From: Blepharisma japonicum
Lineage: Eukaryota > Ciliophora > Heterotrichea > Heterotrichida > Blepharismidae
Length of the DNA stretch: 64,000 nucleotides
Direction of reading: 5' to 3'
Assembly: GCA_949751835.1 (NCBI GenBank)
Contig: CATKHK010000016.1
Span: 434,001-498,000 of the forward strand
This document shows, one piece after another, positions 8,686-52,713 of the stretch (within the stretch, counting starts at the first letter, position 1; every line of letters begins with the position of its first letter). The notes under the pieces were generated by a model. That model saw only the letters and a list, made by a program, of their open reading frames with translations. It was not told where the DNA came from and did no database searches. Made by a program: the position numbers and the translations under genes.

Positions 8686-8915
8686 ATAATTATTTATAAA
8701 TTTTTATATTTACTGATTTACTTTGTTAATTTAGTTGCAAATATTCACTTTCTCTTCCTATAATTTTATTCTCTATAAATTTAAAATAACAAATATTCAT
8801 ATAAAAATTATTGTGGCTTGATCTCAATTAGAGGCGAACAAAAAAAGTTATAATTGCTAATGGAAGATAATTTCTAAAAAATTGTCAATTTCATGTAATT
8901 TTCTAATAAAGTTAA

Positions 8916-11900: not shown

Positions 11901-12766
11901 AGACTTGTAACATCATATAAAAATCTACATAGCAAATTAGCAACTAGATTGATAAATACCCACAATTATGAACCTATAAATATCAATAATCTCTGAAGAT
12001 CTAAGCCACTTAAACGCTGGTATACAATGATTTTTTAAGGATTTTTTCTTCTGTTTCTATATATTTTCTTTTAACTTTTGCATTTTATATCGTTTTTTAT
12101 TTCTATGCTTATAAAAACGGCGAAAATTATCTACTGGAGCGATCTGATTTTGTATTGTTATTTATTAAGCGTCAATTATTTGGGAGAATACTTATGTTTT
12201 GGACAAGAGTTTATGTTTTCCAAGAAACGCCAATTAGTTTATCTAATAGACTAAAAGATTCTTATTTTTTCAATGAGCCTAAAAGTGAATATTTAGACCT
12301 TCTCCGATCTTATAACAAATTGCTAAAATTTCCTTTATTAGAAGAAAATATGCAAGAACTCATGTCAGAAAATTTGAAAAAAAATATCTTTGAGAAGATT
12401 GATACTATACCAATCCAAATAAATGGCTTAAAATATGCTGAGTATGGAGCTTCCCTGTGTCACGATGAGCAAATTTTTGAAAGTACTGAAATCTTAAGTT
12501 CAGAAAGAGATTTTAATAAATTTTCATTAGTACTCAAAAATATGGAAGTATTAAGAAGTGTATTGAATACCGTTAACTATAATATTATTGATATGGCAAC
12601 AGATCATTCAACGGAATTGGTTCAAGAAAATTTTAAGCTGCTAACAGAAATTACAATAATTTATGCCATATTCTCTATTTGCATTTATTTTGGATTTTAC
12701 CTCCCTCTGATTTCAAAAGAATTAAAAAGATTAGAAATACTAAAAAGATTTTGCAAATTGATATAG
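8916..12766 (+). CDS. TmcB-like PAS membrane protein, copy 3 (one frame break)
   Basis: Third tandem paralogue, closest to copy 4. ATG at 8916 is chosen because the sequence around it (AGTTAAATGG) matches the start region of copy 4, and the next conserved block is again SWSIG. Frame 0 stays open with TGA as Trp to about 12023. There one base is missing relative to copy 4, which creates TAA at 12036 in the old frame; frame 2 then continues collinearly to TAG at 12764. The PAS-like block is near 10548-10870 (YANSKASSILREPTTSII), and C-terminal membrane segments match copy 4. Like copy 1 it has lost continuity at a single site, so it may be a recent pseudogene or carry an assembly indel; if functional as written it would lack the last quarter. 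Confidence 0.6.
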
Positions 12767-14085: not shown

Positions 14086-17000
14086 ATGGCTCATCCTTTT
14101 AACTCTGGTGAGAAAAATTCTGATTTGATTATGTGTGAATTCGATCAAATTGAGCAGAATCATATTTCTTGGAGTATCGGACGAATGGATAAAAGTGAAA
14201 GAAATACGTGCAGGTATATATTTTATGGCCTCCTTTATGACTTTCAAAGCAGAGATAAAAATAATGAAGCTGCCAAGCCATTTATGACTCAATTAAAATT
14301 TTCATTGTGGAAACTAATTATTGCTTTACAAATATCGAGTATTCCATGGATCCAAAATTTCTTTGACTACAAAAATTCTGCATTTTTAGATATTTTTAGC
14401 CTATTTCTCAGTTCTGCAATATTTATTGTATGGATATATTTTTTTATCCTTTTAGCTATTTACTTTTCGATAAAAAAGATAAAACATATTTTGCCATTTT
14501 TATGGAGGATTGAAACAATTTTAAGAGTAATTATTTTTAAGGCTGGATATATTCCTATAGCTTATTCATTAGCAGTTGCAATAAAAAGTTCACTTTATAC
14601 CAAAAATTCTGAGTTTAATAAATACAGCAATCAGATTTTAAATAAAAACTCATCTAATTTTATTGGCTTATGTATAGCCACAACGTTTTTGTTGGCTATT
14701 TTTGCATATTTTCATGAATGTTATGCTTATGAGTTTAGACATAGTCGTTTTCCAGATAAATTAATATCCAAGGCTCATTCAAAGTCTGAAAAAGCAAAGT
14801 TAATTGGTATCCATATAATCATCCTCACAATTATGATATCTGAAACTCCAAACATAATTTATTTGAATTTTACTATTATCATTATATCACTCTATATAGC
14901 CTGCGCTTATATTTATTATATTCCTTATTTTAAATTTTCTTTTAATGTTTTGGAAGCTTCAAGTGCTTTATTTCCAGCAGTACTTTCTATTGAATTTATG
15001 ATTTTTGAAAGACAGACTGGATTAATCCTATTAATCTTCATCAATCCTATAATCATATGATTTTTGCATTTGATATGCAAATATAGAGTTTCTCATATAA
15101 ATTTGTTTTTTTCGATCAAACAATACGCGGATGTTTATGAATTTGAAAGAGCTTATAGGAAAAGCCTACTCAATAAAAAAGATTCAGAAGGTATGCTGAT
15201 AATTTTTAATGAAGCTCATGATAATTTAAAGCTGAATAATTCAAAAATGCTAACTATATGAGAAGCTGATTATTGTTTAAATATTTTAAATGACTCAAAA
15301 TTAGCCTCCATAAAAATAAGTTCTTGGTTCCCATTAAAAAATTCTAATTTTGAAGAAGGATTTTTGGAATACTGTTTAAGAACAGAAATTATTGAAAATC
15401 TTTATAAAACTGATGAAGAGGCTAAGTTTTTGTTGTGCATAGAGAAGCTCGAGGATTGGAGAAAAATTGATAAAGAATTCTGCATTTATTTAAATGACTC
15501 AATAACTTTTATTCATAAGAAAAAATATGGGATTTCTGATGCATTTTCCTTAGTCCAAACGGTTTATCAAAAATTTATACAATTGAAAAATACCCAACCG
15601 AATTTCCCAAAAAGTTCAAATAATTTTTTTAAAAAAAATGAGTTTAATTATTTGATGGCAGCGGGAAACGAGCAGGATTATAATTTAGATGCTTTCGAAG
15701 AAAATAATGGAGTAATTATTGTAAGTGGAAGAAAAAATAATGTTGGTAAAATCTTTTATTCAAATACCAAAGCTTCAAGTATTTTGCGAGAACCTAGGGC
15801 AAGTATAATCAATTCTGATATAAATGAGTACATTCCAAAGCTTTTTAATTTTGATCATTGCGAATTAATGAAAAATTATTTAAAATGTTGCATTTCAGCC
15901 GAAATAAGGCACTCTTATGATTCTGTTTTGAAGACGAAATCAGGATTAATAATAGAAATCGACATGTCTGTGAAGTGTTTATCATTTGAAAAGCATCCAT
16001 TTTTTCTTTTCCTATTCAAAGAATCCTCTGAAAGTTCTAGATGAATTATGAATGAGAATTATAGAGCCATTGGATACTCAGGGTGCTACCCAAGCATGCT
16101 CACTCCAGAACATTCTAAATTTATATTAAAAGATAAAAATAGCGAAAAATTGATATTTAAAGAAGACACTCTTATTAAATCAAGCAGTAGAGAATTAATT
16201 GACTCACCAATAATCTCATCAAAGCTTAAACTTAATGATAATAAAATAAAACAGAAAAACTCAGAAAATTTAAGCCAAGAACAGTCTTCATATCAATCAT
16301 CTTCTCTGGCTAATGCATCCTTATGAGAAAAATATTTTCCAAAAATAAAAAAGCAATATATAATATATCGACGGTTTTTATTTCTATTTATTTTAACTAT
16401 TTTGTCAACAAATGCAATTATTTTAGTTTACACTTTAACTGAAATAAGCAAAGCTAAAAATATAGATTCCCTAAAAGAAACTGGGTTTATTTTAGATTCA
16501 ATGATAACTATATCTGCAAATGTAATGAAACTTGATTATTTGACTTACTCAAATGCCACAAATTTAACTATTGCCCAAGGTAATGATTTGATAAATGACT
16601 TGCTTTTAATATTAAAAGCAAAGACAAAAGATATGCTAAACCAGGTTCCTTCTTGAAATTACTGCCCACAATTTTCTTTTTATATAAAAAATGAAATTCC
16701 AATGTGGGAAACTACAGGAAAATATAAAATTGTTTATAAAAATTTAGTTGATATTGTATATGGATATGAATTTTATGCCTCTGAATTTCTCAAAAAATAT
16801 AATAACAATCTATTCTATTTTAATGAGTATGCCTATTTGATATTAAATAGTTATGGAGTTATAGCTCCTCGATCAAAATTAATAATTGATGCTTTGTCGT
16901 CATGTGAAAAATATAGAGCAGAAAACTTGACTAGAAGAATATCATGACTAATTATTGACGCAAATATTATCTTATTTTTTTGTGCTTGCTTCATTATTTT

Positions 17001-17922
17001 TATTATTTTCAGAATTTGTGAAAATTATTGCAGCTTCTATGAGCAAATTAACAAAAGACTTCAAACCTCATTTAAAAGTCTCCATAAGAAGTTAATAACG
17101 AGATTGCTAAATGTGCACAATTATGATCCTATAAGCATCGATAATTCATTTAGATCTGAGCCACTTAAACGCTGATACGACAATAACTTTTTAAGGATTT
17201 TTTCTTCAATCTCTATTTATTTTCTTTTAACCTTTACATTTTATATTATTTTTTATTTCTATGCTTATAAAAACGGTGAAAATTATTTACTTGCTCGACC
17301 TGATTTTATATCACTATTTATAAAGCAGCAATTATTTGGTAGATTACTTATGTTTTGAGCAAGAGTATACGTATTCCAAGACACACCAATGAGCTTGTCC
17401 AGTAGATTAAGCAACTTTTATTATTTTTATCAGCCTAAAAGCGAATACTTAAACCTTATTAGATCTTATAATAAATTGCTAAAGCTATCTTTATTGGAGA
17501 CAAAAACGCAAAAGCTAATGTCAGAAGATTTAAAAAAACTTATTTTTGAGAAGATTGATGCTGACTTAATCCAAAATAATACTTTAAATTGTAGTATATA
17601 TGGAGCTTCTTTATGTCAAAATGAGCAAATTTTTGATGGCAACGAATTATTTGATTCAGAAAGAGATTATGATAAATTTTTATCAATATTAAAAAATATG
17701 GAAACATTTAGATCTTTAATGGACACAGTTAACTATAAAATAATTGGCATGGCAACAGATCATTCAACAAAACTGATTCAAGAAAATTTTGAGCTATTAA
17801 CAGAGGTGACTATAATTTATGCCATTTTCTCTGTTATCATTTATTTTTGATTTTATCTCCCAATGATTTCAAATGAACTCAAAAGATTAGAAGTACTAAA
17901 AAGGTTTTGCAAATTGATATAG
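14086..17922 (+). CDS. TmcB-like PAS membrane protein, copy 4 (intact)
   Basis: Intact 1278-residue frame without introns; TGA is Trp throughout and TAG ends it. Multiple N-terminal membrane helices span residues about 65-325, with Y-E-F-R-H before the fourth. Then come a helical linker (Y-E-F-E-R-A-Y), a PAS-like region near 541-646 (YSNTKASSILREPRASII) and a Ser-rich stretch near 735-745. Membrane segments lie near 760-790, 955-980, 1041-1068 and 1242-1262. Probable membrane-bound sensory protein of the ciliate TmcB-like type. It is shorter than copy 2, mostly in the linkers. Copies 3 and 4 form one pair and copies 1 and 2 the other. Confidence 0.8.
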
Positions 17923-19740
<1,818 letters not shown>

Positions 19741-20255
19741 ACTATAATTATTCGTAATTTTTAGTTATTCTCAACAAATTTTTCAAATAAAATATTAAAT
19801 TAAGTTAAAAATAAATTTCCAGTTTTCATATTTGTTAAATTATTTTATTTTATTTGCTTTTTCTTATTGAAGCAAATTTATAAAATACTTCGTGGGCTTT
19901 TGAAATAGTTTTCTGATAAAATTCATTTATGATACCATTATGAATACTCTTTAAAAAGATTTGAGAAATTAGACTTATATTTATAATAGCTAAATATTCC
20001 TAAAATATCAGCGATTATTTGACTTAAAATTAATAGAAATATGTTTTGTAAATATTAAATATCTTTTATTCCAAAAAGTTTTAATTACTTCCAATTGCAT
20101 TTATTTAATAAGATTAATATTTTGGAGGTCCTTATTATAAGCCTCTATATTTTTAATAAAATTTTAATTTTCCTAAAAGTGCGATTTACACCCGATATTT
20201 TGATTTTAATTTTTTTCAGTATAATATAAGATGTTTACGTCAAGAAAATTAAAAT
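19741..20255. other. Intergenic spacer between beta-tubulin genes
   Basis: AT-rich, with no ORF, repeat or clear regulatory element seen. Confidence 0.4.
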
Positions 20256-21581
20256 ATGAGAGAAATTGTACACATCCAAGGAGGACAATGTGGGAATCAA
20301 ATTGGAACAAAATTTTGGGAAGTAATCTCAGAAGAGCACGGAATTGATATAACTGGCACTTATCATGGAGACTCAGACTTGCAACTTGAAAGAATTAACG
20401 TTTACTACAACGAAGCAACAGGTGGCCGATATGTGCCAAGAGCAGTTCTTTTTGACTTAGAGGTAGGGACGATTGACTCTATAAGGGCCGGAACCCTTGG
20501 CCAGATGTTCAAATCTGATAATTTAATATTTGGAAAATCTAGCGCTGGCAATAACTGAGCTAAAGGCCACTATACCGAAGGCTCTGAGCTTATAGATACA
20601 GTATTAGATGTCGTCAGAAAAGAATCGGAAGGATGTGATTGCTTACAAGGATTTCAAATTGCTCACTCTCTAGGAGGAGGCACTGGCTCAGGTATGGGAA
20701 CTTTATTAATTTCGAAGATTAAAGATGAGTATCCTGACAGAATTCTACAAACATTTTCAGTATTCCCAAGTTCAAAAGTCTCAGATATAGTTGTTGAGCC
20801 TTATAATGCCACTTTATCAGTTCATCAATTAATTGAAAACTCAGATACCGTTATGGTTATAGACAACGAAGCTTTATATGATATTTGTTTTAGAACTTTG
20901 AAATTATCTACACCCACTTATGGAGATTTAAATCATTTAGTAAGCACAGTTATGAGTGGAGTCACTTGCTCAATTCGGTTTCCAGGACAATTAAATGCTG
21001 ACTTAAGAAAAACTGCAATTAACTTAATTCCATTCCAAAGGCTTCACTTTCTCATGATCGGATTTGCCCCTTTAACTTCACGAGATAATCAACAGTATCA
21101 AAATTTCACAGTCCCAGAACTTACTCGGCAAATGTTTGATGCCAACAGTATGATGTGTGCTTGTGATCCTAAATATGGCCGATATCTTACAGCAGCTGCT
21201 CTATTTAGAGGGAAAATGTCAACTAAAGAAGTTGACGAATATTGACCTTACAGGTTAAAAAACATAAGATATTTTGTCGAATGAATTCCAAATGGAATGA
21301 TGACATCTATTTGTGATATTCCTCCTAAAGGAATTAATATTTCTGCTACGTATATAGCGAACTCAACTGCAGTACAGGGGATGTTTAAAAGAGTAGCTGA
21401 AAAATTCAATGCTATGTTTAGAAGAAAAGCTTTTTTGCATTGATATACAGGAGAAGGGATGGATGAAATGGAGTTCATTGAAGCTGAAAGTAATATGAAC
21501 GATCTCATCAGTGAATATCAACAATATCAAGATGCAACTTGTGATGATCTTAGTAATAAACATTATTACTTAGATTTTTAA
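20256..21581 (+). CDS. Divergent beta-tubulin without acidic tail
   Basis: Full-length open frame of 441 residues, collinear with the beta-tubulin upstream; TGA is Trp at several sites including 101, and TAA ends it. The MREI start, the GGGTGSG loop and most of the core are kept. Several normally invariant positions differ: Pro70 to Val in the E-P-G-T loop, Gln94 to Lys and Gly96 to Ser in the loop before Trp101, and Q-M-L-N-V-Q replaced by Y-W-P-Y-R-L near residue 330 with one residue lost. The acidic tail is replaced by [13 protein letters not shown], so the usual glutamylation and glycylation sites are absent. This resembles the beta-like tubulins of Tetrahymena, which also lack normal tails (recalled). 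It may be a specialised isotype or an early pseudogene; the intact frame favours function or recent origin. Confidence 0.85.
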
Positions 21582-21659
21582 TAATTTAGTATTATTTAAA
21601 TTTTTTTATAGAAATAACGTTCCTTTAAGAGCAAAAAATAAATTGTTGCTAGTTAGTCC

Positions 21660-21957
21660 AAGAAAGATTTTTCATAGAATGAATTCGAAACAGTATGACA
21701 ACCTCAATTTGTGATATCCCGCCTAAAGTACTTAAGATGGCAGCATCTTTTATAGAGAGCTCAACTGCTATTCAAGAGTAGCTCAACAATTTGTTGTTCT
21801 ACTCAGAAGAAAAGCTTTCCTGCATTGGTACACTGCGGAAGGTATGGATGAAATGGAGGTCACTGAAGCTGAAACAATATGAACAATCTTGTAAGTAAAT
21901 ACCAGCAATGCAAAGATGCAACTAGTGAAGATCAAATTACAATTAATCATCATTAAT
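21660..21957 (+). pseudogene. Beta-tubulin 3' fragment, decayed
   Basis: About 300 bases matching the last 100 codons of the two genes upstream. It includes the Ser-Ile-Cys-Asp-Ile-Pro-Pro-Lys block (about 21704-21728), A-F-L-H-W-Y (about 21813-21830) and the helix before the tail. It has an internal deletion, frame changes and a stop, and no 5' part. It is a relic of a third tandem beta-tubulin copy or of a partial duplication. Confidence 0.85.
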
Positions 21958-22046
21958 TATTTTAAACAATAATTTTATTAAATAAAATGATTTTGCTTTA
22001 AATCAGAAATTTTGGAATTATTATAAATTAAGAAATCTGAAAAAAT

Positions 22047-39476: not shown

Positions 39477-39683
39477 ATGGGATGTACAGCAAACATTAAG
39501 AGTCGTCCAAGCACAGGTGATGAAGAAATATCAGAAGAAAAAGACACAAAGTTATCAGATTTTCCAAAAGCTGATTTAAGCTTAAGTTTGCCAGCGAAAG
39601 GCAAACATTTTAAAATCAGGGTTTTCAACCCTTCAACAAATGGATTAATTAGTGAACCTACTGTTGAGACCACAAACAGTTAA
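39477..39683 (+). CDS. Small Met-Gly-Cys protein 1 (predicted lipid-anchored)
   Basis: 68 residues starting MGCTANIK, a typical context for N-myristoylation at Gly2 and palmitoylation at Cys3. The middle is charged and Ser-rich. Residues about 43-56 (K-H-F-K-I-R-V-F-N-P) carry the motif shared with the next two genes: aromatic-x-I-R-[VI]-F-[NT]-P-x3-G-L. The last ten residues are Thr/Glu-rich. Probably a small peripheral membrane protein of unknown function. Coding status is supported by the motif shared with its neighbours. Confidence 0.7.
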   Translation: MGCTANIKSRPSTGDEEISEEKDTKLSDFPKADLSLSLPAKGKHFKIRVFNPSTNGLISEPTVETTNS

Positions 39684-40544
39684 TCATTAATTAGGTGTAA
39701 TTTAATCAAATAACCTAATTTCTTGATAATTTTTGTTGAAAAATAATTAATGGTTCTTCTTTAGAGATCTAACTATTTAATTGAAATTATGAGCAAAAAT
39801 TTGCATTTTGAATAAACTGAGGGTTTAAATTAATAAATTATGCAAAAGAAACGTTGTCGGCCGATATTTTTGATAATTTTGTGGAGGAAAATGAAATTAC
39901 GAAAAAGGGTTAATGAAAGAGATAAGAAGGATAGGAAGTAGGAAATGATGATAGGAAATATGGCAATAAGAGAAGATAAAGCTAAATATTTAAATCCTAA
40001 AAAATTTAAATTTTTGATTGATCGAGTTTCATATAACGTAAAATTAAATTTATCTTATGCTAATTTTTAAAAAGACATTATTTTAGTGTTTTTAAATTCA
40101 TTTAACAAAAAATTGAAAATGTAGCATTATCAAAGCAAGATTATTATAATTAAAATTTTATTCTTTATAATAAAAAAAATTCGTAATTAAGCCTTGATCA
40201 ATAAGAATAGCACCAATGAATTTGAAATAACATTTTGAATTATCATTTTTAATTTTTCGAAACTTATAATTATCTTTTCTTTTGAGTATATGATAAATAA
40301 TAGAATTTTATTATTAAGAATATTTATATCAATTCTAAATTCAAATAATAATAAGCGGGCCATTATAAAGCAATAAAAATTTATAGTATATTAATCTTTA
40401 CTTAATAAGTATTAGAAAGAAAAATTTAAAAGTAAAGCAAAAAAAACTCACAAAATAATCAAAATAACTTTATTTTCTTAAATTCATATAAAGTTATACA
40501 ATAATAGGCATTTTTGTTATCATAAAAATTTAAATTTTAGCAAA
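39684..40544. other. Intergenic region in the Met-Gly-Cys cluster
   Basis: About 860 AT-rich bases without an ORF or a clear repeat; nothing recognised. Confidence 0.4.
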
Positions 40545-40775
40545 ATGGGATGTGGAATTCACTCAAAACATAAGCAGAACAGCAACCAAAACACTTCTTT
40601 AAGCCTAGATATTACCGAAAAATCGCTAAACTGCAAGCAAGAAAAAGTAAGCTCAGTACTTTTTTCTGAAAAACGAAAAATCTACACAATTCGAGTGTTT
40701 ACTCCTGAAGAAGATGGACTTCATGAAGACCAAAACACTTTAGAGAACAATGTAAAAAGCACATGTATTATTTAA
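40545..40775 (+). CDS. Small Met-Gly-Cys protein 2 (predicted lipid-anchored)
   Basis: 76 residues starting MGCGIHSKHK (predicted N-myristoyl plus palmitoyl). It has a basic, Asn/Ser-rich first half, then S-E-K-R-K-I-Y-T-I-R-V-F-T-P and G-L, the same motif as in the flanking genes. It ends with C-I-I; this terminal Cys is three from the end and lacks the full CaaX form. Function unknown. Confidence 0.75.
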   Translation: MGCGIHSKHKQNSNQNTSLSLDITEKSLNCKQEKVSSVLFSEKRKIYTIRVFTPEEDGLHEDQNTLENNVKSTCII

Positions 40776-41164
40776 TATAACTAAAATCATGTATAAAACC
40801 TTAAATTTTATCTCACCTATGTCTTAATGTTGTGTGATAGTCGTTTTTTTATATAGTCTTGATGGATAATAGGGATGAAAAATTGTCGTTAGAGAAACAT
40901 AAATGATAAAAAATAATTTATAGGGGGAAAATATTCAGGACTAATTTTCAAAAAAATTAACTATCAAGGTTTTATAAGTTAAATAAAATTAATTGGCTTT
41001 GAAGTAAGAGAATGAATTTTTATTAACAATTAAAAATTATAAAGCCATATAGATTCTGTTTATAATTCTGATAAATTATAAATTTTATAAAAAAATAATT
41101 TAAACAAATTTCGAAGGCTGTCAAATTTATAATCCATAATCTTGGATAAATTATTAATTCAAAG
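40776..41164. other. Intergenic spacer
   Basis: AT-rich, nothing recognised; a minus-strand ORF overlapping the next gene is a shadow. Confidence 0.4.
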
Positions 41165-41404
41165 ATGGGTTGCGGAATGCCGAAGAATGCAAAGAAATTT
41201 TCAAAAAGCTGCATTGATTTGGACAGATATTGCGAGACTTCAAATGACTCAATTAGAAATTTAAGAGTTTCTCAAAAAGATTTAAAACTAAGCGAGAAAA
41301 GGAAGAAATATCAAATTCGAATTTTTACACCAGATAAAATGGGTTTGGCTGATGGTTCAGTGTCTTTACATCGTTCCTCATCAAATCAAGCTAAAAGTGT
41401 ATAG
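41165..41404 (+). CDS. Small Met-Gly-Cys protein 3 (predicted lipid-anchored)
   Basis: 79 residues starting MGCGMPKNAKKFSKSC: Gly2/Cys3 acylation context followed by a basic patch that would strengthen membrane binding. Residues about 50-63 (S-E-K-R-K-K-Y-Q-I-R-I-F-T-P ... G-L) repeat the family motif, closest to protein 2. The tail is Ser-rich. Function unknown. Confidence 0.75.
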   Translation: MGCGMPKNAKKFSKSCIDLDRYCETSNDSIRNLRVSQKDLKLSEKRKKYQIRIFTPDKMGLADGSVSLHRSSSNQAKSV

Positions 41405-41779
41405 CGCTGCAATAATTAACTAATTTTCAAATATTTTATCAAACCTTAAGCATTCCAATTTCCCAAAATTTCAAAAGGCTTCATAACTATCTTTTTCTTT
41501 CACAAAATTATATAATAACTGCCCTTACTGTCTTATACTTTGCTTATAATGTATAAATCCTTCAGGCTTAAGCAAACTAATGATATCGATTCTAGAAATG
41601 TATCAGTATATATTATATTTCTAAAGCCAAAATGTCACTTAATTACTATGAATGTCTTTTAATTATAAATCGCTGCAAAAATTTGCTTTTTTTCAAGATC
41701 ACATAAAATCAGTTTTTTTATTCATTATGTTTTATTCATTACTGAATTTTGTTTAAATAATAAACTAATTAACAATAAA
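41405..41779. other. Intergenic spacer
   Basis: AT-rich, nothing recognised. Confidence 0.4.
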
Positions 41780-42607
41780 ATGGGATGTGGTCAAATAAAG
41801 AAAGGAGATCCTTTTATATCCAATTTATCTGAATTGAGACCAAGAGTAATTCCTCAAGAAAATGCTGACGAAAGTGAGCCAGAAAATATAAATTGCCAAA
41901 AAATCTATCATATAGAAGATCTTAATAGTTCAATACTCAAAGAAAAAATGCGTGATGTTAGGGTAAAACACATTCATTATAATGCTTTTGATTTAAACAA
42001 CGAAATTTCTCTTGTTAAGCAAAAATATATTGGGTTAGCATCAGTAAGGGAATCTTTTTTTTCTCAATGCCATGCACAGTGTATAAAAGATTTTAAGGTA
42101 TCAGATGGGATTTTTATAATGCTACTAAGTATTTATGCTTCTGATCCATCAGCACTTGCCAGTATAAAACCTTCACAAAATCCACCGTACATAACTGTTA
42201 TTAAAGAACATCTAAGTCAAGACTCAAGAAATATAGTAGTCGCTTGGGAGCATTTAGCTGAAAAAATGAAAGAGCTAAAAGAAACTTATGCAGGAATTCC
42301 AATAATTCGAAAGAGAATGCAGCAAGCAAGACTTACACTAGAAAATTATTTAGTTGAAATTGATAATTCTGATCCACCTCGAGGTGAATTAGTCGCTTTA
42401 CAAATAAATCAAAATTTAGCTGAAGAAGGTATAACATATATAAATAAACTAGATGTAGAAACCGATAGGCTTCACGATGATATTAAAGATTTTATCAAAT
42501 CTAAATTCAATAAAGAAGAAGTTGCGAATTTAGGAAAAGAAGCAATTTTGCTTAGTGCATATACAGGAGACAAAATTTTGCATCATGTTGTAGCTCCACA
42601 AATATAA
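41780..42607 (+). CDS. Met-Gly-Cys helical protein (predicted lipid-anchored)
   Basis: 275 residues starting MGCGQIKKGD, the fourth Met-Gly-Cys start in a row on this strand. Unlike its small neighbours it has a long, mostly helical body. Residues about 80-200 look like a helical bundle (Y-I-G-L-A-S-V-R-E-S-F-F) with amphipathic helices toward the end (I-R-K-R-M-Q-Q-A-R-L-T-L-E-N-Y-L). The small-family aromatic-x-I-R motif is absent. It may be a membrane-curvature or scaffolding protein; no family is recognised. Confidence 0.75.
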   Translation: MGCGQIKKGDPFISNLSELRPRVIPQENADESEPENINCQKIYHIEDLNSSILKEKMRDVRVKHIHYNAFDLNNEISLVKQKYIGLASVRESFFSQCHAQCIKDFKVSDGIFIMLLSIYASDPSALASIKPSQNPPYITVIKEHLSQDSRNIVVAWEHLAEKMKELKETYAGIPIIRKRMQQARLTLENYLVEIDNSDPPRGELVALQINQNLAEEGITYINKLDVETDRLHDDIKDFIKSKFNKEEVANLGKEAILLSAYTGDKILHHVVAPQI

Positions 42608-42658
42608 AAGATTTTTCTGAAATTCATATCATGCATTAATATATTAAGTTAAAGAAAA

Positions 42659-43195
42659 ATGGTCCTCTTTTCAATGCACAATATCTTGGGCAGATTTCTT
42701 TCACCAATCTGTTTTGGAGCTTGCTTACTCGGAATTCTTCTAATTATAAACCAAGGCACTTCATTATTCATTGAACAACCGTTTACTTGCAGAGTCAGCA
42801 ATGCAAGAGTTGGCACATTCGCACAAAATCAAGGGACAGGATGGGATGAGGCTGAGATTACTTTTGATATATATTGCAATTTTACAGATATTTATAATTG
42901 GAGCGTAAAGTATGCTTATTATTGAATACAATTAGAATATTATGACTTGGATAGGAATGAGGTGACTTTTTGGGATGCCAATGCTGCGAGAAATGGAACA
43001 AGGCTAACAGGTTTAATATCAAAAGATCAAAAATGACAGTATGTGGCAAAATCCAAAAAGTACAGCCTCAAAGGAATTACAGCTGCTGTAAAACTAAGGG
43101 TTGAGGTCATTCCAATTTTCGGGTTTGTATATAATTTAGAGTGCTTGCCAACGGTAGTGACTTTTCCTGATAAGTATGAGTTTGCATTTGTTTAA
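42659..43195 (+). CDS. SPCS3: Signal peptidase complex subunit 3 (SPC22/23)
   Basis: 178 residues with TGA as Trp twice. One N-terminal membrane helix (about residues 12-32) is followed by a lumenal beta-rich domain. The conserved run F-D-I ... N-F-T-D-I-Y-N-W-S-V-K-Y, then N-E-V-T-F-W-D, K-Y-S-L-K-G, V-I-P-I-F-G and finally V-T-F-P-D-K-Y-E matches SPC3 of the ER signal peptidase, with N-x-T/S glycosylation sites. SPC3 is an essential partner of the catalytic subunit. The second Met (codon 6) is the likelier start by comparison with the family. The upstream gene ends 51 bp away. Confidence 0.88.
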
Positions 43196-43400
43196 TTTCA
43201 CTAAAGATGACACAAATTATTTGTTTTCAGGATTTTTATATAAATTTTAACTCATAACTGCACAACTAATAAAAATATATATAAAATTATAATTATTAAC
43301 ATTTATACGCATAAAAACCCTTCATTAGCTATAAAAACTTCTCAAAATCAGCAAAAATGTTTCTTCTTAATCCATATTGTAAGCTGGAGCAAATATTAAA

Positions 43401-45473
43401 ATGTGGAGAGCCTTGCTATTACTCTCTATAGGAGCTTTTGCAGTTTGCCCCAAGTATCAATGCCATACAGGAGGCATCGATGTCGGTCCTACATGTGCAT
43501 ACCCAACATCTACAAACGATATTATGATGCAATTGTGTGATGCTTCAAATCTAAATCCTGTATGCCAAGTGACACCACAAATCACCCACAATTTCACATG
43601 TCAACCATTTGATAATAGCCGCCCAATGGAGCTAAATTATCCAGGAGAATTTTGCCACTCCAACTCTCAGTGCCTTTCAGGATCTTGCATGAGCAACCAG
43701 TGCCAAGGCCAACCTTTAGGAGGAATGTGTGTTTCTCATGCAGATTGTAATGTAGGACTTTACTGCAACCAAGCCGGACATTGCATAAAGCAAGTAGGCA
43801 TTTCACAGTTCTGCAACTCCGATTGGGATTGCCAAAATAACTTAGCTTGCAATAGGACTCTTTACAATCCAGGCTTATGCGTTCCTTACTATTCAGTTCC
43901 CAATGGTGACGGTATAGGCATGTGTGTGACTGAACTATCAGAAGGTGTCTCAAATCTCTGCCAAAGCGGCTCATGCACCCAGCAAAAGCCAAATACAAAC
44001 GGAGAAGGATTCTGCCAGCCAAGCATCAAAACAGTTGGAAAATTCCCTTCAAAATGTGTTGGAGACTCTGACTGTATTGGCTCAAACTCTCCAAAATCCT
44101 CATTTACTGGGACTTGTGCATGCGGAATGAACCCTACAGGAGAAAGCTACTGCAATTCTTGGTCAGGAGATGAGCCTAACCAAATTGTCCAAGAAATTTG
44201 GATCCAACACGTAAACTCTGTAGGTATCGCTAACTGCCACACTATGAGAAGATTTTCGCAGTCCTGCTTATACCACACTATGACCCCTTCGCAAATGGCA
44301 AACTTCACTCAAAATGAATTGAAGTCATCAGACATTGCAAGATACCAAAACAATGATGTCTGTACCCAAGTTATTTTTAATAGAGATTACTATAGAGTCA
44401 CTCCACAGACCTTTATGTGCAAAGCTTATGGCTGTGATACCAAGAATCCATGGGCTACCGAGACTTGTTTAACTTATCAAGAGGGAAGCAATAAATACGC
44501 AGTCAAAGAGTGTGAAAATAAATTGTACTGCAATACCCAGGAAACCTTTGGACATGAGTGGATGAACTCTACTTGTGGACCTGCCCCAACACCGGCTCCA
44601 TTATATCCAGGCCAAATATGTAAGGTAAATACTGATTGCTTATCTGGAAAATGCGTCGGTGGAAAATGCAGAGGTGCAATTCAAAACGAACAATGCAATG
44701 ATGATTATGACTGCAACACTGGCTTATATTGCTACGCCATTAATTTTGTATTCCAATGTGTTCCTCAAATCCCAGTTGGACAGCAAGGCTGTGCTACAGA
44801 CTACGATTGCGTCACAAGCGCTGGTTGCAATGCAACTAAAGAATACCCTATTGGAGAATGCGTTGCTTATTTCTCAGTGCCTTTAGGAACTGAAGTGCCA
44901 TGCCCAGTATCTGGAAACAATTATTTATGTAGCTCAGGAACTTGCTACAACAATGGAAAAGATGATAGAGGTGTTTGTGTCCCAGCTCCAAAATCTGCCT
45001 CATTTGGAGCTCCATGTTCTAGCAGCAACGATTGTATGGGCTCAAACGCAAACGGTCAATCCTTTGTTGGACAATGCCAATGTGGCTATAACCCATTCGG
45101 AAATAAATATTGCAGTGCTTTTGCTGGAGATCCACCAGGTGTCCAATTCGTTAATAAAGTTTCTCCACTTTACAAGCTTTCTACCATCAATATGTGCCAT
45201 ACTTCGTTGAGATTTAACACTAACTGTTTAGATATGGTAGCAAGCATGACTGGAGCTAATGCAAATATTTATTATTCCGCCTTACTGAATTTCACAAATT
45301 TCCCAGCTTATATGGAAAATGACGAATGTGTAAGAACTGTGATTAATTCAGCATTTTGGTCAAGATTGCCACCTGGGCCTACACCTCCTCCTCCACCAGG
45401 ACCTGATAATGACGATAATAGCTCCGCAGCAATCCTTACTGTGATGATGAGCTTATTAGCCTTCTTCTTTTAA
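43401..45473 (+). CDS. Cysteine-rich surface protein with two repeated halves, probable GPI anchor
   Basis: 690 residues, one exon. A signal peptide occupies about residues 1-16 (MWRALLLLSIGAFAVC). Two homologous cysteine-rich halves follow, starting near residue 79 (Y-P-G-E-F-C ... C-L-S-G-S-C) and near 401 (Y-P-G-Q-I-C ... C-L-S-G-K-C). Each contains D-C-N-x-G-L-Y-C, N-x-x-C-N-x-T and a C-x-C-G module, then a less Cys-rich part. The C-terminus has a proline-rich stalk (PTPPPPPGP), a short polar segment (D-D-N-S-S-A-A) and a hydrophobic end, fitting a GPI-anchor signal. The cysteine spacing resembles Dickkopf/EB-type modules found in many ciliate surface proteins. Likely a cell-surface or secreted coat protein. 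Confidence 0.8.
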   Translation: MWRALLLLSIGAFAVCPKYQCHTGGIDVGPTCAYPTSTNDIMMQLCDASNLNPVCQVTPQITHNFTCQPFDNSRPMELNYPGEFCHSNSQCLSGSCMSNQCQGQPLGGMCVSHADCNVGLYCNQAGHCIKQVGISQFCNSDWDCQNNLACNRTLYNPGLCVPYYSVPNGDGIGMCVTELSEGVSNLCQSGSCTQQKPNTNGEGFCQPSIKTVGKFPSKCVGDSDCIGSNSPKSSFTGTCACGMNPTGESYCNSWSGDEPNQIVQEIWIQHVNSVGIANCHTMRRFSQSCLYHTMTPSQMANFTQNELKSSDIARYQNNDVCTQVIFNRDYYRVTPQTFMCKAYGCDTKNPWATETCLTYQEGSNKYAVKECENKLYCNTQETFGHEWMNSTCGPAPTPAPLYPGQICKVNTDCLSGKCVGGKCRGAIQNEQCNDDYDCNTGLYCYAINFVFQCVPQIPVGQQGCATDYDCVTSAGCNATKEYPIGECVAYFSVPLGTEVPCPVSGNNYLCSSGTCYNNGKDDRGVCVPAPKSASFGAPCSSSNDCMGSNANGQSFVGQCQCGYNPFGNKYCSAFAGDPPGVQFVNKVSPLYKLSTINMCHTSLRFNTNCLDMVASMTGANANIYYSALLNFTNFPAYMENDECVRTVINSAFWSRLPPGPTPPPPPGPDNDDNSSAAILTVMMSLLAFFF

Positions 45474-45751
45474 GTGCCTTAAGATTATGCATCCTTTCTT
45501 AAATCTTAATTAGAATTTTTAAATAAATTAAATTTTCTCTATAGAGATTCTGAACGCATAAATTTATTTACAAATTGTTGCCTTAAATTGAATAAGAAAA
45601 TAAAAGAAATTATTAAGTTTATTCTATAGATTTACTGCTAAAGGATTAATTAGGAAAATAACACTCTAACGTAAGAGCTCTGCGGATGAGAAACAAATTA
45701 TTCTCTATTTACCATTATTTTTTCCATTTTTTGGAATCCGATCAAAATATA

Positions 45752-46579
45752 ATGGGGTGCTGCTATTCAAGAGATGTAAATTTTATTTAGAAGATTCTGC
45801 AAGACACAGATATAGCAAAAAACAGCTTCATATCAGAAGCAAAGTATTTGAAGCTGCAAACTCTTGAAGAAGAAAATGATCCAAAGACAAATGATTTAAT
45901 CAATTATATCCAAGAGCTGGACAATTCTGACCAATGAGAATTAATTAAAGACGAAAATTGATATAAAGTAAGTAAACTCAAAGGAAGCAAATATAATTTA
46001 GAATACCCAATAAGCAAGCTTTGATTCCATCTAGAAGGAAGGGTCCCGCTCCGAATAATTTTAGACGAACTAAATACACCAGAAAAAAGGATGGCTTGAG
46101 ATAAAAATTTTAAAACCTATGAAATCATTGGAGGAGATTTTCCGAGAAATTACACAATTTATTATTTAATATCAGTGTTAGGGTACAAAGGAGACTATAT
46201 AGAAAAAAGAATTATCTCTATTTGGAATGATAAAGTAGTCGTTATCTCCTATTCGGTAGAAAATGAAAATAAACTCCCTATCAATGGTATCAATAGAGGA
46301 ACCACACACATCGGAGTCACCATAATTTCTTTATTAAACGAAAGAACAGAAATTACTATGTATAACCAATCAGAGCCAAATAGCACACTTGGGAAATTAT
46401 TCACAAATTTAGCAGTAGGAAAAATGGGGACTTGATGTAAAAAATATAAAAATGCAATTCAGAAAGCCAGAGGAGCACCGGTTCTTGAAATAGAAGAAGT
46501 GGAAGAGCAAGAAACAGATATCACGGCGTCTACATTTGATAATGAGCCTGAAATTACTGAAATTAATAGAATTACATAA
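45752..46579 (+). CDS. Met-Gly-Cys-Cys START-like lipid-binding protein
   Basis: 270 residues after splicing one 15-nt intron (45776-45790), with TGA as Trp at several sites. It starts MGCCYSRD, predicted to be myristoylated and doubly palmitoylated. The remainder resembles a START/Bet v1-fold domain: L-W-F-H-L-E-G-R-V, M-A-W-D-K-N-F-K-T-Y-E-I-I-G-G-D, then beta strands (V-V-V-I-S-Y-S-V) and a C-terminal helix (W-C-K-K-Y-K-N-A-I-Q-K-A-R). It could bind or move a lipid at a membrane. It is the fifth gene with a Met-Gly-Cys start in 7 kb. Its stop is 12 bp from the stop of the convergent minus-strand gene. Confidence 0.78.
45776..45790 (+). other. 15-nt intron in the START-like gene
   Basis: GTAAATTTTATTTAG, right after codon 8 (Asp), with an in-frame TAG. 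Removing it joins the MGCCYSRD start to the open frame that encodes the START-like domain. Confidence 0.88.
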
Positions 46580-47374: not shown

Positions 47375-48499
47375 TTAATCTGCTACTATTCCTTCTTTCG
47401 TAATTAATTTATCAGAAAAAAGCGGATTTTTAGTTCCACATAGAATTTCATTGTTGCTATAAGAACTTGATGAAGAAGAGCCATCTACACTATCGCTATC
47501 ACTAGGATACTCCATTATTTCAAGCCTTTGTGATACTAGCAAATTACTATTCGGCAGATTCAGTGCAGGGACCAAGCTCGGCCTTTTTTTGGACTTATTT
47601 CTTTCCTTTTCCTTCTCGAACTTCATCAAAATTTCTGAAAAATTAGTAGAGCTCTGATTTCTTATAAAATCAATCAGCTCAGTCTGATAATTTTCCTTCC
47701 TTCTTAAATCATAAATTTCAAAATTTAAGTCTCTTATGACTTCTCCTTTTTTCTTTGTTTCTTCTAATAACAAATTTATATCGTAAACAGTTTTACTAGG
47801 GCCTATTTTAGTCTCTTTTAAGTTTCTTATATCTTGATTTAAAATGTCGATTTTTTCTGTCAATGAGATATTTTCATCAGACAGACATTTTAATTTTTGA
47901 CTTATAGAACTATTTTCCCTTTTATATAAAAGTAGCTTTGTCATAAGTTTTTTGTTATCTTTTTCAAGCTGAGGTATTCTTTCATCAGATTTTTCATTAT
48001 AAATTTCAATAAAGGTATTTTTCAAATATTTTAGGATTGATAAAATCGGCATGGCTTGCAGTAATTCTTCGAAAGCATCCACACATGACTTAAATTTTTC
48101 AGAGATCTTTTGATTATTTGATATAGAAGCATTTTTCAAACCGATTTTGAGCTTTTTTTTTATTTGATTTATAACCTCTAAATTTAGCATAAGATCAGTC
48201 TTAAATATAGTCTTTTTCATTTCTGAATCATTTGATTTTTTTAGGTTTTTGGACGAATTAAGGTTTATAAATGACTGGGAGTTTATAGGACTTAAATAAC
48301 AGCTACTGACCTCCCGGTGATGGTTGAGCTTGGGAGGGTGAATTTGTGTGAATTTTCTATAGTGTTTTTTAAGTTGGAATGGCGAGGGTGATCTCCTTAT
48401 ATTTAACTGTGTGTGGGAATAGGGAGAGGAAGTCAAGCTTGGAGCGTTTTTAATTGTGTGAAGACTGAATGATGGAAGTTCAGTGTCTTTTGGTAACAT
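47375..48499 (-). CDS. Coiled-coil family protein, member 1 (divergent)
   Basis: 374 residues, the most divergent of four tandem paralogues. The N-terminal part keeps the S-S-P-Y-S signature. The middle (about 95-270) is a coiled coil with L-S-D-E-N-I-S-L-T-E-K-I and E-E-T-K-K-K-G-E-V-I-R, matching the family block E-E-[TS]-K-[RK]-K-G-E. The C-terminus differs: instead of the V-P-[ED]-L-x-I ... R-x-D-S-F ending and final W-[LI]-R it has a Ser run and a different end. Probably a cytoskeletal or centriolar-type coiled-coil protein; no known family seen. Confidence 0.75.
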   Translation of the reverse strand: MLPKDTELPSFSLHTIKNAPSLTSSPYSHTQLNIRRSPSPFQLKKHYRKFTQIHPPKLNHHREVSSCYLSPINSQSFINLNSSKNLKKSNDSEMKKTIFKTDLMLNLEVINQIKKKLKIGLKNASISNNQKISEKFKSCVDAFEELLQAMPILSILKYLKNTFIEIYNEKSDERIPQLEKDNKKLMTKLLLYKRENSSISQKLKCLSDENISLTEKIDILNQDIRNLKETKIGPSKTVYDINLLLEETKKKGEVIRDLNFEIYDLRRKENYQTELIDFIRNQSSTNFSEILMKFEKEKERNKSKKRPSLVPALNLPNSNLLVSQRLEIMEYPSDSDSVDGSSSSSSYSNNEILCGTKNPLFSDKLITKEGIVAD

Positions 48500-48773
48500 T
48501 TTTTAATTAAAAAGAATAAAATAAAGTTTTTTTATATGATTATTTTATTGAGAGGAAGTATTGTGGAATAGAATTAATATTATTAAAGATAATAAATTTA
48601 GAATAGGAAGCTTCCTTTTTTTATCACCATAATAAATATGAAACTTCCATAATGATAAGCCATAGAAGCGTATAAATAAATTTTAATAATTCAGCTGTAA
48701 TATAATGAAAAAATTTTGGAATTAATTATAATTATCACTTTAATTCTTTAAAGATTACATTAAATTTAAAAAT

Positions 48774-49895
48774 CTAGATTCTAAGCCAAGAATTTTCCAA
48801 GTTTTCATTTGTCACAAAAAATTCTTGGAAAGAGTCTCTTCGAATTTTTTCAATTTTTAATTCAGGGACTGGAGAAAGTTTTGGCTTCATAAATTCGTCA
48901 GCTGCTGAGTTATTATTATCTGATATCTCTGAATCTGAGCTTTGTGCTCCATTTTCAGGTGGAAGAGTCGAAATTCTAAGCCTAAAGCCTAAATTTTTGT
49001 TTTTTTCTTTATCATTTTTCATAGATTCTACTGCAGCTTCTACATCAAACCCCTTCTTTTTAATAGCGTCAATAATATTTTGATTTTTTATTTCTTTTCT
49101 TCTTAATTGATGGATTTCTTCATTTAAAAGCTTTATTGCCTCTCCTTTCCTTTTAGTCTCTTCCATAAGAGAATTCATAAAGTACTGAGCCTTTGAATGC
49201 TGTGAGCTAAAATCTTTTAAACTATAAATTTCTTTTTTAAGCATCTCGACTTCTGCAGCAAGTTCAACATTTTCGTTGCTTAATTGTTTTAATTTTTTTT
49301 CTAAAATTGCTTTTTCTTTTTTAATTTTGGCTAATTTTTCTTCGGATTCTTTTTTGGAATTTTCTGAATCGTAATTTTGGAGGCTTGGTAGGTTAGCATT
49401 AAAACAGCTGATAATTCCATTTTTAATTTCACTTAAAATTTGAATAGTGGGTAAAATTTTCAATACTTCATCCAAGGTATCTAAATGGACATTTAATTGG
49501 GCTTTTTGTGATGAGCTGTTTTTAAGATTTTCCATATAATTATCACGGATTTTTTCAAAAATTTGAGAATTTAAAATAGCCTCGTTTGAGCCAGAATTTT
49601 CTTTGACCTTTTGAAACTTTGCTGACGATTTATAAATTTTTGCTACCGCTACTTTAAAAGTGGGGTTCTGAATCAATGGTAGAGGTGTTGAATCGGCTTC
49701 TTTGTCCTTTATTGAAGCTTTGGTTGATAAAAGGGATGAAGTTCTATTTAAACCTTGAGTGCTTTTTATACTAGTTAATTTTTTCCTGGACTGCAATCTT
49801 CGGGAATAAGGAGAGTTACTCAAATCGCTGAAAGATTGATTAGTCTTAGTCGAAAAACTGATAGGCTGTGTGTAAATTGGCTTAATCTCATTCAT
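48774..49895 (-). CDS. Coiled-coil family protein, member 2
   Basis: 373 residues. The start is set at MNEIKPIYTQ because paralogues begin MND; the 35-residue in-frame extension upstream has no counterpart in them. Ser/Arg-rich N-terminus with N-S-P-Y-S-R-R. Helical region with L-D-E-V-L-K-I-L-P-T-I-Q-I-L. Long coiled coil (L-S-N-E-N-V-E-L-A-A-E-V-E-M-L-K) ending in the conserved M-E-E-T-K-R-K-G-E-A-I-K block. Acidic linker, then V-P-E-L-K-I-E ... R-R-D-S-F and the terminal S-W-L-R-I. Confidence 0.8.
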   Translation of the reverse strand: MNEIKPIYTQPISFSTKTNQSFSDLSNSPYSRRLQSRKKLTSIKSTQGLNRTSSLLSTKASIKDKEADSTPLPLIQNPTFKVAVAKIYKSSAKFQKVKENSGSNEAILNSQIFEKIRDNYMENLKNSSSQKAQLNVHLDTLDEVLKILPTIQILSEIKNGIISCFNANLPSLQNYDSENSKKESEEKLAKIKKEKAILEKKLKQLSNENVELAAEVEMLKKEIYSLKDFSSQHSKAQYFMNSLMEETKRKGEAIKLLNEEIHQLRRKEIKNQNIIDAIKKKGFDVEAAVESMKNDKEKNKNLGFRLRISTLPPENGAQSSDSEISDNNNSAADEFMKPKLSPVPELKIEKIRRDSFQEFFVTNENLENSWLRI

Positions 49896-50061
49896 TATTA
49901 TTTTCGTATAGTTATAAATATGAAAAAAAAATGATGTTAAGATAATATATTTATTAATTTTCAAAAAATCTGCAAAATGGCTTGAATTTTTGATGAGCAA
50001 ATTTTAAGGCATAATGCTAAGTTTAAATATAAACATTAATTATATTAAATATTTAATAAAT

Positions 50062-51177
50062 TTATTCTCTGAGTCAAACATTATCTGCAATTTCTTTGTT
50101 TACATAAAGATCTAAAAAGGAATCGGATTTTATGCGAGTTATATCAAGCTCAGGAACCGGTGATGATTTTTTAGAATTTATATTTTCATTTTCGTTGTAA
50201 TCTCCTAATGATCTTTGCTTTTTTTTTGACGGAATTACTGTCAATTGTTTAGAGGGCTGTGGCCTTTTTGCATTTATTTTGGCATTTTCGTTCTCTTTTT
50301 CTTTTATAGAGCTTTTTTTTGAAAAATTATATGTTGTTCCTTTATTTCTTGCAAATTCTATCATTTTCAATAATTTTGCATCTTTTTTCCTCAATTCATA
50401 ATTTTCTGCATTTAGAATCTTGATTGTCTCTCCTTTTCTTTTAGATTCTTCCAATAGCATATTTAAATAATTTTGAGACTTCATCCCTTCTGTATTTCCA
50501 AGAAAAATATCGTTTTCTTTTTTAAGTTTTTCAATTTGATCTATCAGTTCAATATTTTCATTGCTAAGTATTTTAAGTTTTTTATCAAGCTCTACCTTAT
50601 CTTTTTTATATTCTTCAACCTTGATTTCTAGCAATTTTGCCTTTTTTTCTAACTCAATATTATCTAAAACGCAGCTTTCTTCTTTTAATATATTCCTCAG
50701 CCCATCTTTTATTTCTCTCAAAATCTGTAATCCAGGCAGGAAAAGAAGAACTTCTTCGAAAACTTCAAAATAAATTTTCAATACAAAAATTATAGGTTTT
50801 TCAGAAACAGCTTTTAATTTTTCCTTAAAATCTTTTAATAGTTTATCCAACTTTGTGCTGTCTAAAACAAGTTCCCAGGATATGTCTTTATTGTCTTTAG
50901 AGATTGGAGATAAAGATTGATTTATCATTGGGAGTCTAGCTACACTTGTACTCGATTTAAGTAGGGAGTTTTTTGTTCCAGTAATATTCTCTTTAGAGAC
51001 ATTTATTTGGTGACTAAGAGTTGTGATGGTCCTTTGTGGAGGAAGCTTTATTGGATTTAGCTTCTTCCTTATATTGAATACAGGTTTTAAGTAAGGTGAA
51101 GAAGTCAAATCAGTTAATGATTGGCTAAGTTTTGAGTACAATAAAGGTAGGGGTCGAGATTTTTTGGAATCATTCAT
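50062..51177 (-). CDS. Coiled-coil family protein, member 3
   Basis: 371 residues. A TGA (Trp) at 50074-50076 lies four codons before TAA, so the protein ends D-N-V-W-L-R-E, matching the W-[LI]-R end of members 2 and 4. Family blocks are present: T-S-S-P-Y-L-K, L-L-F-L-P-G-L-Q-I-L-R-E-I, L-S-N-E-N-I-E-L, E-E-S-K-R-K-G-E-T-I-K, and V-P-E-L-D-I-T-R-I-K-S-D-S-F. The 3' neighbour starts 166 bp away. Confidence 0.8.
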
Positions 51178-51588
51178 AATGATTATTTTATATTTAAATT
51201 GTTAATATTAATTTATATTAGAGAAGAATTTTATGGTTGTGAACGGACTCACGAAGTACTTTTCGAATACGGTTTAGCCAGTGAAACCTTGATTTATTAT
51301 GAAATTCATTATCCATATTTTAGGACTATTTTATAATATTGAGCATTAAGACCTTCAAGCAAGTGAGTAATAAATTCAACTATTAATTGAAAATTTATCA
51401 ATATCTCGGCTTTTTCCTTATACTTTATTAATATTAGATCATTTATAAATTATATTTTATAATTATAGTAATATTTTATTTATATTAAATGAATATAAAA
51501 GAATTTCTTTTTATTATACATTTTAATTTCAAAAATTTCAACTGCCAAATTTAAGTTTAAATTATTAATACCGTACATTAACTCGATT
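51178..51588. other. Intergenic spacer in the coiled-coil array
   Basis: Mostly AT-rich; a short less AT-rich patch near 51238-51290 has no recognised feature. Confidence 0.4.
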
Positions 51589-52713
51589 TTAGCGTCTTAT
51601 TCATGGCTGCTCCGAAACCTCATAGCTTTCATAAAGCTCCAAAAATGAATCGGACCGAACTCGTTTTATATCTAAATCAGGCACAAGCGATTTTTGCTTC
51701 ATATAGCATTTCTCTTCAATTGAATTATCGCTTTCATCTTCTGAAATATTTTCACTTGAAACTTTATTCTCTGATGACATTGTTAAAAATCTTAAAGGAA
51801 ACTTATCCTTTGAATCAGAATTTTCACTGTTTTTATTAAAATCATTTCTTGGCAGAGTTAAATAGGCTGAAATATTGATTCCTTGAGATTTCATTGTATT
51901 TAATGTTTTCAAAAATCTGGCTTCTTTTAATCTTAACTCATGGTTTTCGGTATTCAAAATTTTTATCATTTCGCCTTTTCTTTTGGTTTCTTCCATTAGA
52001 GAATTTAATATATGCTGTGATTTTGGTTGGTCATTTTGAAAGTCTTTTAAAAATTTTAGCTCATTTGACATTGTATCAATTTTTGCTAAGAGTTCCACAT
52101 TTTCGTTACTTAAAATAATTAATTTCTTCTCAAGCTCTAATTTGTTCTTTTTAAGCTGCTGAATAGAGCTTGCCTGGGCTTTTAATTTAAATTCGATTTT
52201 AGAGTCACCATTCGTAATTCCTGGTGGATCCTCGTCTATGATATTTTTGAGTCCCAATTTTATATCTTTTAGGATGCTTAAGGCTGGCATAGAAACCACA
52301 ATCTCGTCCAACGTTTCACAATATAAATTAACCAAAAATGTTTTTGTTCTAATTTCACAATTTTTCAATTTTTCTTCATAATTTACTCTGATTTTTTCCA
52401 AAATCGCTGGATTAATAAGGTTATCCCATAACAGTGCTTTATTTTTGGGTTTCTGGGAATTCATAGGTGATTTCCCATTAGAGACCTTTATAGGGCTTAA
52501 ATTAGATTTTGCCACCGGTGATATAGACTCTTTTTGTGCTAGTTTAGTGAGGGTAATTGTTCGCTTTAATTCTTGTGGAAGCTTAGTTATCGATAATTGG
52601 TTTCTCTTATGGTTCAGTCCTTTTGAATATGGTGACGAGTTAAGTTCACTGAAGGTCTGACTAAGTTTTGAGGTTGATAAAGATTGCAACATGAGGATTT
52701 TTTTATCATTCAT
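51589..52713 (-). CDS. Coiled-coil family protein, member 4
   Basis: 374 residues. The frame continues through a TGA (Trp) to end E-Q-P-W-I-R-R, consistent with members 2 and 3. It begins MNDKKILM, has N-S-S-P-Y-S-K-G and P-A-L-S-I-L-K-D-I, then a coiled coil (L-S-N-E-N-V-E-L-L-A-K-I-D) and M-E-E-T-K-R-K-G-E-M-I-K. It closes with V-P-D-L-D-I-K-R-V-R-S-D-S-F. Most 5' of the array on the minus strand. Confidence 0.8.

Follow-up and report, generated by a model that had tools for sequence, protein, structure and literature searches.

A co-duplicated tandem array of small Met-Gly-Cys proteins, predicted to be acyl-anchored, in a heterotrich-like ciliate genome

LAMTOR1 and CDC42SE1 are small, dually acylated adaptors in which a short acyl anchor is combined with a docking segment. 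The closest published layout that we found for the locus discussed here is the HASP/SHERP (cDNA16) locus of Leishmania, which is described as a set of small clustered genes with mutually related HASP products, HASPB being tethered through N-myristoylation and palmitoylation at its N-terminal SH4 domain (PMC5271408). Clusters of small acylated proteins are therefore not new in kind. Among alveolates, the apicomplexan IMC sub-compartment proteins (ISPs) are described as having predicted N-myristoylation and, in most of ISP1-3, a nearby CysCys motif (PMC3828762). For Blepharisma stoltei, 25,711 genes have been reported, with introns that are predominantly 15-16 bp long and UGA read as Trp (PMC9942806).

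Here, we describe a group of genes in a window of 64,000 nucleotides (C16:434001-498000), set against a search of the whole genome of 45.19 Mb in 224 contigs. The initial annotation had pointed to five genes on one strand that begin with Met-Gly-Cys (MGC), with SPC3 and another protein between the fourth and the fifth, and had read them as a single membrane-targeted locus. All five starts were confirmed (genes 1-5, at 39477, 40545, 41165, 41780 and 45752; Table 1), the fifth with the proviso that it needs splicing and TGA read as Trp, and the two intervening genes were identified as a signal peptidase subunit and a large Cys-rich protein; a minus-strand gene, the sixth with an MGC start, had been overlooked. 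In-frame TGA, read as Trp, is found in both SPC3 and gene 5, and together with the 15-nt intron it is a feature of the window that fits a heterotrich ciliate. Our main reading, to which we assign a probability of roughly 60%, is that genes 1-3 form a tandem array with gene 4 as companion, that the block was co-duplicated, and that the products are acyl-anchored tethers or adaptors with a docking motif.

Table 1. Positions of the MGC genes and their neighbours in the window.
Feature	Position	Strand	Remarks
Gene 1, small MGC protein 1, 68 aa (MGCTANIK...KHFKIRVFNPSTNGL...)	39477..39683	+	ORF; first of three tandem paralogs
Gene 2, small MGC protein 2, 76 aa (MGCGIHSK...KIYTIRVFTPEEDGL...)	40545..40775	+	ORF
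Gene 3, small MGC protein 3, 79 aa (MGCGMPKN...KKYQIRIFTPDKMGL...)	41165..41404	+	ORF
Gene 4, MGCG protein 4, 275 aa (MGCGQIKK)	41780..42607	+	ORF
SPC3/SPC22 signal peptidase subunit	42659..43195	+	Pfam SPC22 PF04573, E 8.5e-19
Cys-rich protein, 690 aa	43401..45473	+	ORF; both termini hydrophobic by eye
Gene 5, MGCC START-domain protein, 270 aa spliced (MGCCYSRD...)	45752..46579	+	TGA = Trp
Gene 5 intron, 15 nt GT..AG	45776..45790	+	Directly after codon 8; spliced frame open
Sixth MGC gene, 76 aa (MGCIISID)	27627-27397	-	ORF

Several other features of the window were noted by eye. At 114-17922 on the plus strand, a large protein rich in hydrophobic stretches is repeated in tandem, its copies having a common C-terminus (...LKRFCKLI); in some of them, stops or introns divide the protein between frames. 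Two tandem beta-tubulin-like genes, the second more diverged, lie at 18409-22000, where an antisense ORF (21768-21953) suggests a third C-terminal fragment. On the minus strand, four tandem coiled-coil-like paralogs of 371-374 aa (47375-52713) share a motif like LLEETKRKGE...LNxExxxLRxKE. A Pfam match of the Cys-rich protein to DUF7107 is sub-threshold (18.8 vs 24.6 bits), and an Rfam match to SNORD36 at 2533-2610, scoring 30.7 bits where the gathering score is 30 (E 0.68), lies inside an ORF and was set aside as probably due to chance.

Genes 1-3 have in common the MGC start and a C-terminal core, K-x-[YF]-x-I-R-[VI]-F-x-P-x-x-x-G-L. In genome-wide protein searches, gene 2 retrieved C14:66743 (E 2.1e-9), C14:65395 (E 4.1e-4) and gene 3 (E 0.0026), and gene 3 retrieved C14:65395 (E 1.3e-10), C14:66743 (E 8.9e-6), gene 2 (E 0.0014) and C14:66035 (E 0.0029). 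The sole match of gene 1 was its own copy at C14:67498 (48 of 68 aa identical over the alignment), and it is joined to genes 2 and 3 by alignment. Judged from these comparisons, the three genes are diverged tandem paralogs of one tiny ciliate protein, which is probably membrane-anchored. A structure model of the small protein, built from a shallow three-row alignment, has no fold (mean pLDDT 54) and would be in line with a disordered tail. Pfam was scanned with all 23 small members read in the genome (see below), in sets of 14 and 9: no family recurred in the first 14, and none of the other nine had a match at cut-off. A FlaG match of one small member (E 0.0022) was dismissed as isolated, and an Interfer-bind match of one small member as falling short of the cut-off (17.2 bits vs 21). 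A search of PDB sequences with 14 small members returned nothing below E 0.17, and no work on such a small MGC protein family was found among the titles and opening abstract lines of the literature retrieved.

Gene 4 has one clear paralog genome-wide (C14:64954-64121, 73% identical), its only other match in the genome being on C46 at E 0.98. It has no recognised domain, in that no Pfam match exceeded the cut-off; one to AFG1_ATPase was dismissed at 15 bits against a cut-off of 27. When PDB sequences were searched with gene 4 and its copy, no match had an E lower than 0.22. As its single-sequence model, mostly helical, is of low confidence (mean pLDDT 57), and a Foldseek search of the PDB with this model produced no match at E <= 0.001 and weak helical matches beyond it (TolQ, BAR and others), no fold is claimed.

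Counterparts of genes 1-4 lie on the minus strand of C14 in the same order (starts at 67498, 66743, 66077, 65395 and 64954), this copy of the cluster carrying one additional member of 54 aa. Synteny extends well beyond the cluster, with eight collinear and inverted gene pairs between 27.4-43.2 kb of the window and 84-58 kb of C14 (27397-43195; C14:58442-83945), among them SPC3 (paralog at C14:58960-58442, 45% identity) and the sixth MGC gene (C14:83682-83945, 81% identity across 78 aa). The block looks like an old segmental duplication, since the intervening genes differ. Nei-Gojobori estimates of dN/dS were 0.18/1.70, 0.53/1.75, 0.48/2.16 and 0.16/1.63 for the pairs of genes 1, 2, 3 and 4, that is, ratios of about 0.11, 0.30, 0.22 and 0.10, which are rough because dS is near saturation in all four pairs. 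For the three small pairs, pN (0.16-0.38) was lower than pS (0.67-0.71). We favour purifying selection, acting on the protein in genes 1-4, as the explanation of these substitution patterns. At 68-79 aa, and with neither a Pfam match above cut-off nor a confident model, the small ORFs look as non-coding stretches or ORFs arisen by chance in AT-rich intergenic DNA might look, but such an origin is hardly credible in view of the protein-level conservation across the duplicated block and of pN below pS in the three small pairs. Given their kept order on C14 and dN/dS of about 0.1-0.3, we take genes 1-4 to be real and conserved. The pair of the sixth MGC gene has a dS of 0.46, compared with at least 1.6 in the other duplicated pairs measured, perhaps as a result of gene conversion or extra constraint.

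The pattern AAAATGGGNTGY occurs 219 times in the genome, against 31 times when read backwards; for the swapped Met-Cys-Gly pattern the figures are 72 and 20. MGC starts are thus scattered genome-wide, which had been named, if without clustering, as an outcome that would speak against the locus; yet they are clustered too. In the listed part of these places, the first 100 out of 219, there are two same-strand triples, on C16 and C14. When 219 starts were placed at random, 0.37% of 20,000 simulations contained one or more same-strand triples within 2.6 kb and none contained two or more; the span of 2.6 kb had been set with the data in view. On the sequence evidence, genes 1-4 are clustered beyond chance, through tandem and segmental duplication, so that the grouping arises by tandem duplication rather than by unrelated membrane proteins coming together.

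Gene 5 has a separate history. Its unspliced frame meets a stop after 12 codons; removal of GTAAATTTTATTTAG, directly after codon 8, yields the 270-aa protein, of which residues 57-215 match the Pfam START domain (PF01852, 25.2 bits vs a curated cut-off of 22). No PDB sequence match was found for it at E up to 1. As a genome query it returned 12 START matches on 12 contigs, itself included, and an MGCC start was seen in 11 of these, with none found in L036. An intron of 15 or 16 nt (GT..AG) directly follows codon 8 in six of ten START genes tested, gene 5 among them, and so the MGCC acylation-type start forms a mini-exon of its own in these six; in one of them, L029, the unspliced frame is open too. 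In the window (45752-45790) and among the START relatives L028-L033, the start of this kind, an 8-codon first exon before the 15-16-nt intron, reads MGCCxxR[DE]. We know of no acyl-anchored START family, and a literature search for one found no relevant paper. Gene 5 is probably a separate START lipid-binding protein, predicted to be acylated, and the MGCC-START family, several members of which have the 8-codon first exon, would be a second testable side result.

The position of gene 5 bears on the original proposal when that is read as one functional membrane-protein locus, in which all five genes were brought or kept together for co-expression. The five MGC genes do share a strand and span no more than 7.1 kb, and the order of genes 1-4 is preserved on C14; we nonetheless find the proposal very improbable. 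Gene 5 belongs to a dispersed family and has no START relative within C14:50001-84000, and SPC3 and the Cys-rich protein intervene between it and gene 4. If there are 190-600 MGC starts genome-wide, about 2-6% of points are expected to have one on the same strand no more than 5 kb away in either direction. This figure is low, yet the position of gene 5 falls within chance and calls for no special cause. Gene 5 is most likely a bystander, near genes 1-4 by chance. What stands of the single locus is the cluster of genes 1-4, whose order, orientation and MGC start are all kept on C14.

The classical rule for N-myristoylation, PS00008, asks for Gly at residue 2, a small residue (S, T, A, G, C or N) at residue 6 and any residue but Pro at residue 7. 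All five window genes and all 23 small members read begin with Met-Gly. Under the rule, genes 1 and 5 pass (two of the five), but genes 2, 3 and 4 fail, with His, Pro and Ile, respectively, at residue 6; the myristoylation context is weaker than was initially proposed for the five. The genome does contain an N-myristoyltransferase (NMT) gene (PF01233, 235.3 bits, C78:110022-110498). Among the small members, seven of 23 pass the rule, residue 6 being Pro in 13 and His in two. M1, G2 and C3 are invariant and the C-terminal motif is conserved in 14 aligned members, at identities to the first of only 20-39%, and 22 of the 23 have Lys or Arg within residues 4-16. Acylation of the small MGC proteins is plausible and a good guess. 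The Pro and His residues at position 6, and the small share of members that fit the rule, would suit a different view, in which the proteins are real, non-acylated and cytosolic, with MGC kept by ancestry or for another role of the Cys, such as metal binding or redox chemistry. We judge this view unlikely, though worth keeping in mind: G2 and C3 stay invariant despite the low identity of the 14 aligned members, MGC starts are enriched over MCG relative to their reversed patterns, and an NMT gene is present. The family would amount to a natural variant series for testing the tolerance of NMT to Pro at residue 6.

The search for similar clusters in this genome, suggested at the outset, turned up further tandem arrays besides the C14 copy. 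The pattern AAAATGGGNTGYGG occurs at 21 places, its reversed control at none, and around these places lie further MGCG proteins of 58-81 aa. Further protein searches yielded tandem arrays of nine on C26 and six on C45 (15 places, with E 7.0e-5 or better to one query), pairs on C5, C22 and C43, and singles on C6, C152 and C45:109 kb. The total is 31 places, mostly in tandem arrays, which fall into groups of 21 (C26, C45, C5, C22 and C6), seven (three on C16, four on C14) and three (C152 and C43). Of these, 23 were read, including 15 of the group of 21, and eight were located only; the MGC start in 23 of 23 read members is partly by construction, as several were found through the MGC pattern. 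By sequence, the two members on C43 lie close to C152 (E 8.2e-5 and 0.009), and a genome search with C152 returned itself and the two C43 copies only.

Members of the C45/C26 type usually have the start MGCG[IL]P-x-K, an acidic stretch ending in DTSL, a variable linker and the motif G-x-x-Y-x-I-x-[VI]...[TS]P-x-x-S. A profile of nine read C45/C26 members, without their first 12 residues, placed the six remaining members read in the group of 21 at ranks 1-6 among 1069 sequences (a set from which L058-510 and L023-393 had been removed), the fourth at about 1e-4, the fifth at about 2e-4 and the sixth, C22a, at E 0.03. C22a was returned by no genome search and is counted through its place beside C22b, its alignment and this sixth rank. 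The group of 21 thus appears mostly coherent without its first 12 residues. Matches at C113:9741 (E 0.089) and C14:572429 (E 0.6) lie inside long frames and were not counted as members.

Three further MGCG proteins of 59-63 aa (L010:2965-3150, L012:2785-2961 and L019:2885-3073) were left out because by eye they do not have the C-terminal motif; they carry an IEDLS/IEDIS-type motif near the end and are possibly a second microprotein family. In addition, L052 (C4:382001-387000) holds two tandem MGCC proteins, in open frames of 224 and 235 aa, which by eye are possibly kinase-related.

Whether the window/C14 group belongs to the larger group of 21 was approached with alignments lacking the first 12 residues. 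Their hhalign score, 20.8, exceeded the maximum of 13.4 in 300 column permutations (0 of 300 reached it), a lenient control in that permutation also disrupts local order; the hhalign probability was 21%. With hmmsearch, a profile of the larger group found two of the seven window/C14 members within its best 25 rows, at E 0.52 and 6.9, with shuffled sequences appearing from E 1.2, and the reverse direction gave a best E of 0.12-0.15, with one shuffle at 0.91; the search set included L058-510, a family ORF with another start, and L023-393, a duplicate of C152. The C45/C26 profile ranked gene 1 eighth and C152 ninth (E about 0.2), where the best shuffle also scored. These comparisons are suggestive of membership. 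They also leave considerable room, though at less than even odds, for the window/C14 array and the arrays on C5, C22, C26 and C45 being independent MGC microprotein families that converged on a short plan. Profile searches between the groups are weak (E 0.1-7), and window members used as genome queries never reached the C45/C26 arrays; against independence stand the hhalign score, under its lenient control, and C152, which looks intermediate and ranks above every shuffle with both two-way profiles, if not with the C45/C26 profile.

In our main reading, genes 1-3 belong to a small-protein family and stand as a tandem array in this heterotrich-like ciliate genome. Each combines an unvarying MGC start and a linker that differs between members with a conserved strand-like motif at the C-terminus, [KG]-x-x-[YF]-x-I-x-[VI]...P; close to the start, Lys or Arg is present in most relatives. 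Gene 4 is a bigger MGCG protein kept next to the array, and segmental duplication copied the four genes as one block. Gly2 may be myristoylated by the NMT encoded on C78 and Cys3 S-acylated, and the acylated end may pin a mostly disordered tail to the membrane, the C-terminal motif being a candidate docking peptide for a common partner. With such docking, the proteins would serve as membrane tethers or adaptors, and tandem duplication would be the source of their diversity. A bolder proposal, which we regard as speculative and rather doubtful, is a heterotrich-specific superfamily of at least 30 interchangeable acyl-anchored micro-adaptors. Expanded in paired tandem arrays and diversified in the linker, it would use a non-classical MGCG-x-P-x-K anchor and a shared C-terminal docking strand for bringing one partner to different membrane sites. 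Proteins of fewer than 80 residues are easily missed by annotation, and about 31 tiny MGC proteins, Pfam-less in our scans, would be a sizeable, lineage-specific enlargement of the probably membrane-associated proteome of a heterotrich, one of a group of ciliates known for cortical patterning and regeneration.

How, then, does the locus compare with known systems? The small MGC proteins resemble LAMTOR1 and CDC42SE1 in design only. The family of gene 5 is distinguished from START proteins (PF01852) by the MGCC start of 11 of its 12 genes and, in six of ten tested, by the intron that directly follows codon 8. The apicomplexan ISP1-4, which are alveolate proteins as well, are similar in their predicted N-myristoylation, with a CysCys motif close by in most of ISP1-3 (PMC3828762). 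The Pfam matches of the window genes and of the 23 small members, taken up to E 1, include no family named for ISPs. ISPs are also longer than the small proteins and have a folded domain. With HASP proteins the likeness is one of description, the proteins reported here differing in their variable linker and MGC starts; in layout, and in layout only, the locus is similar to HASP/SHERP as that locus is described, with clustered, related genes whose products carry acylation-type N-termini.
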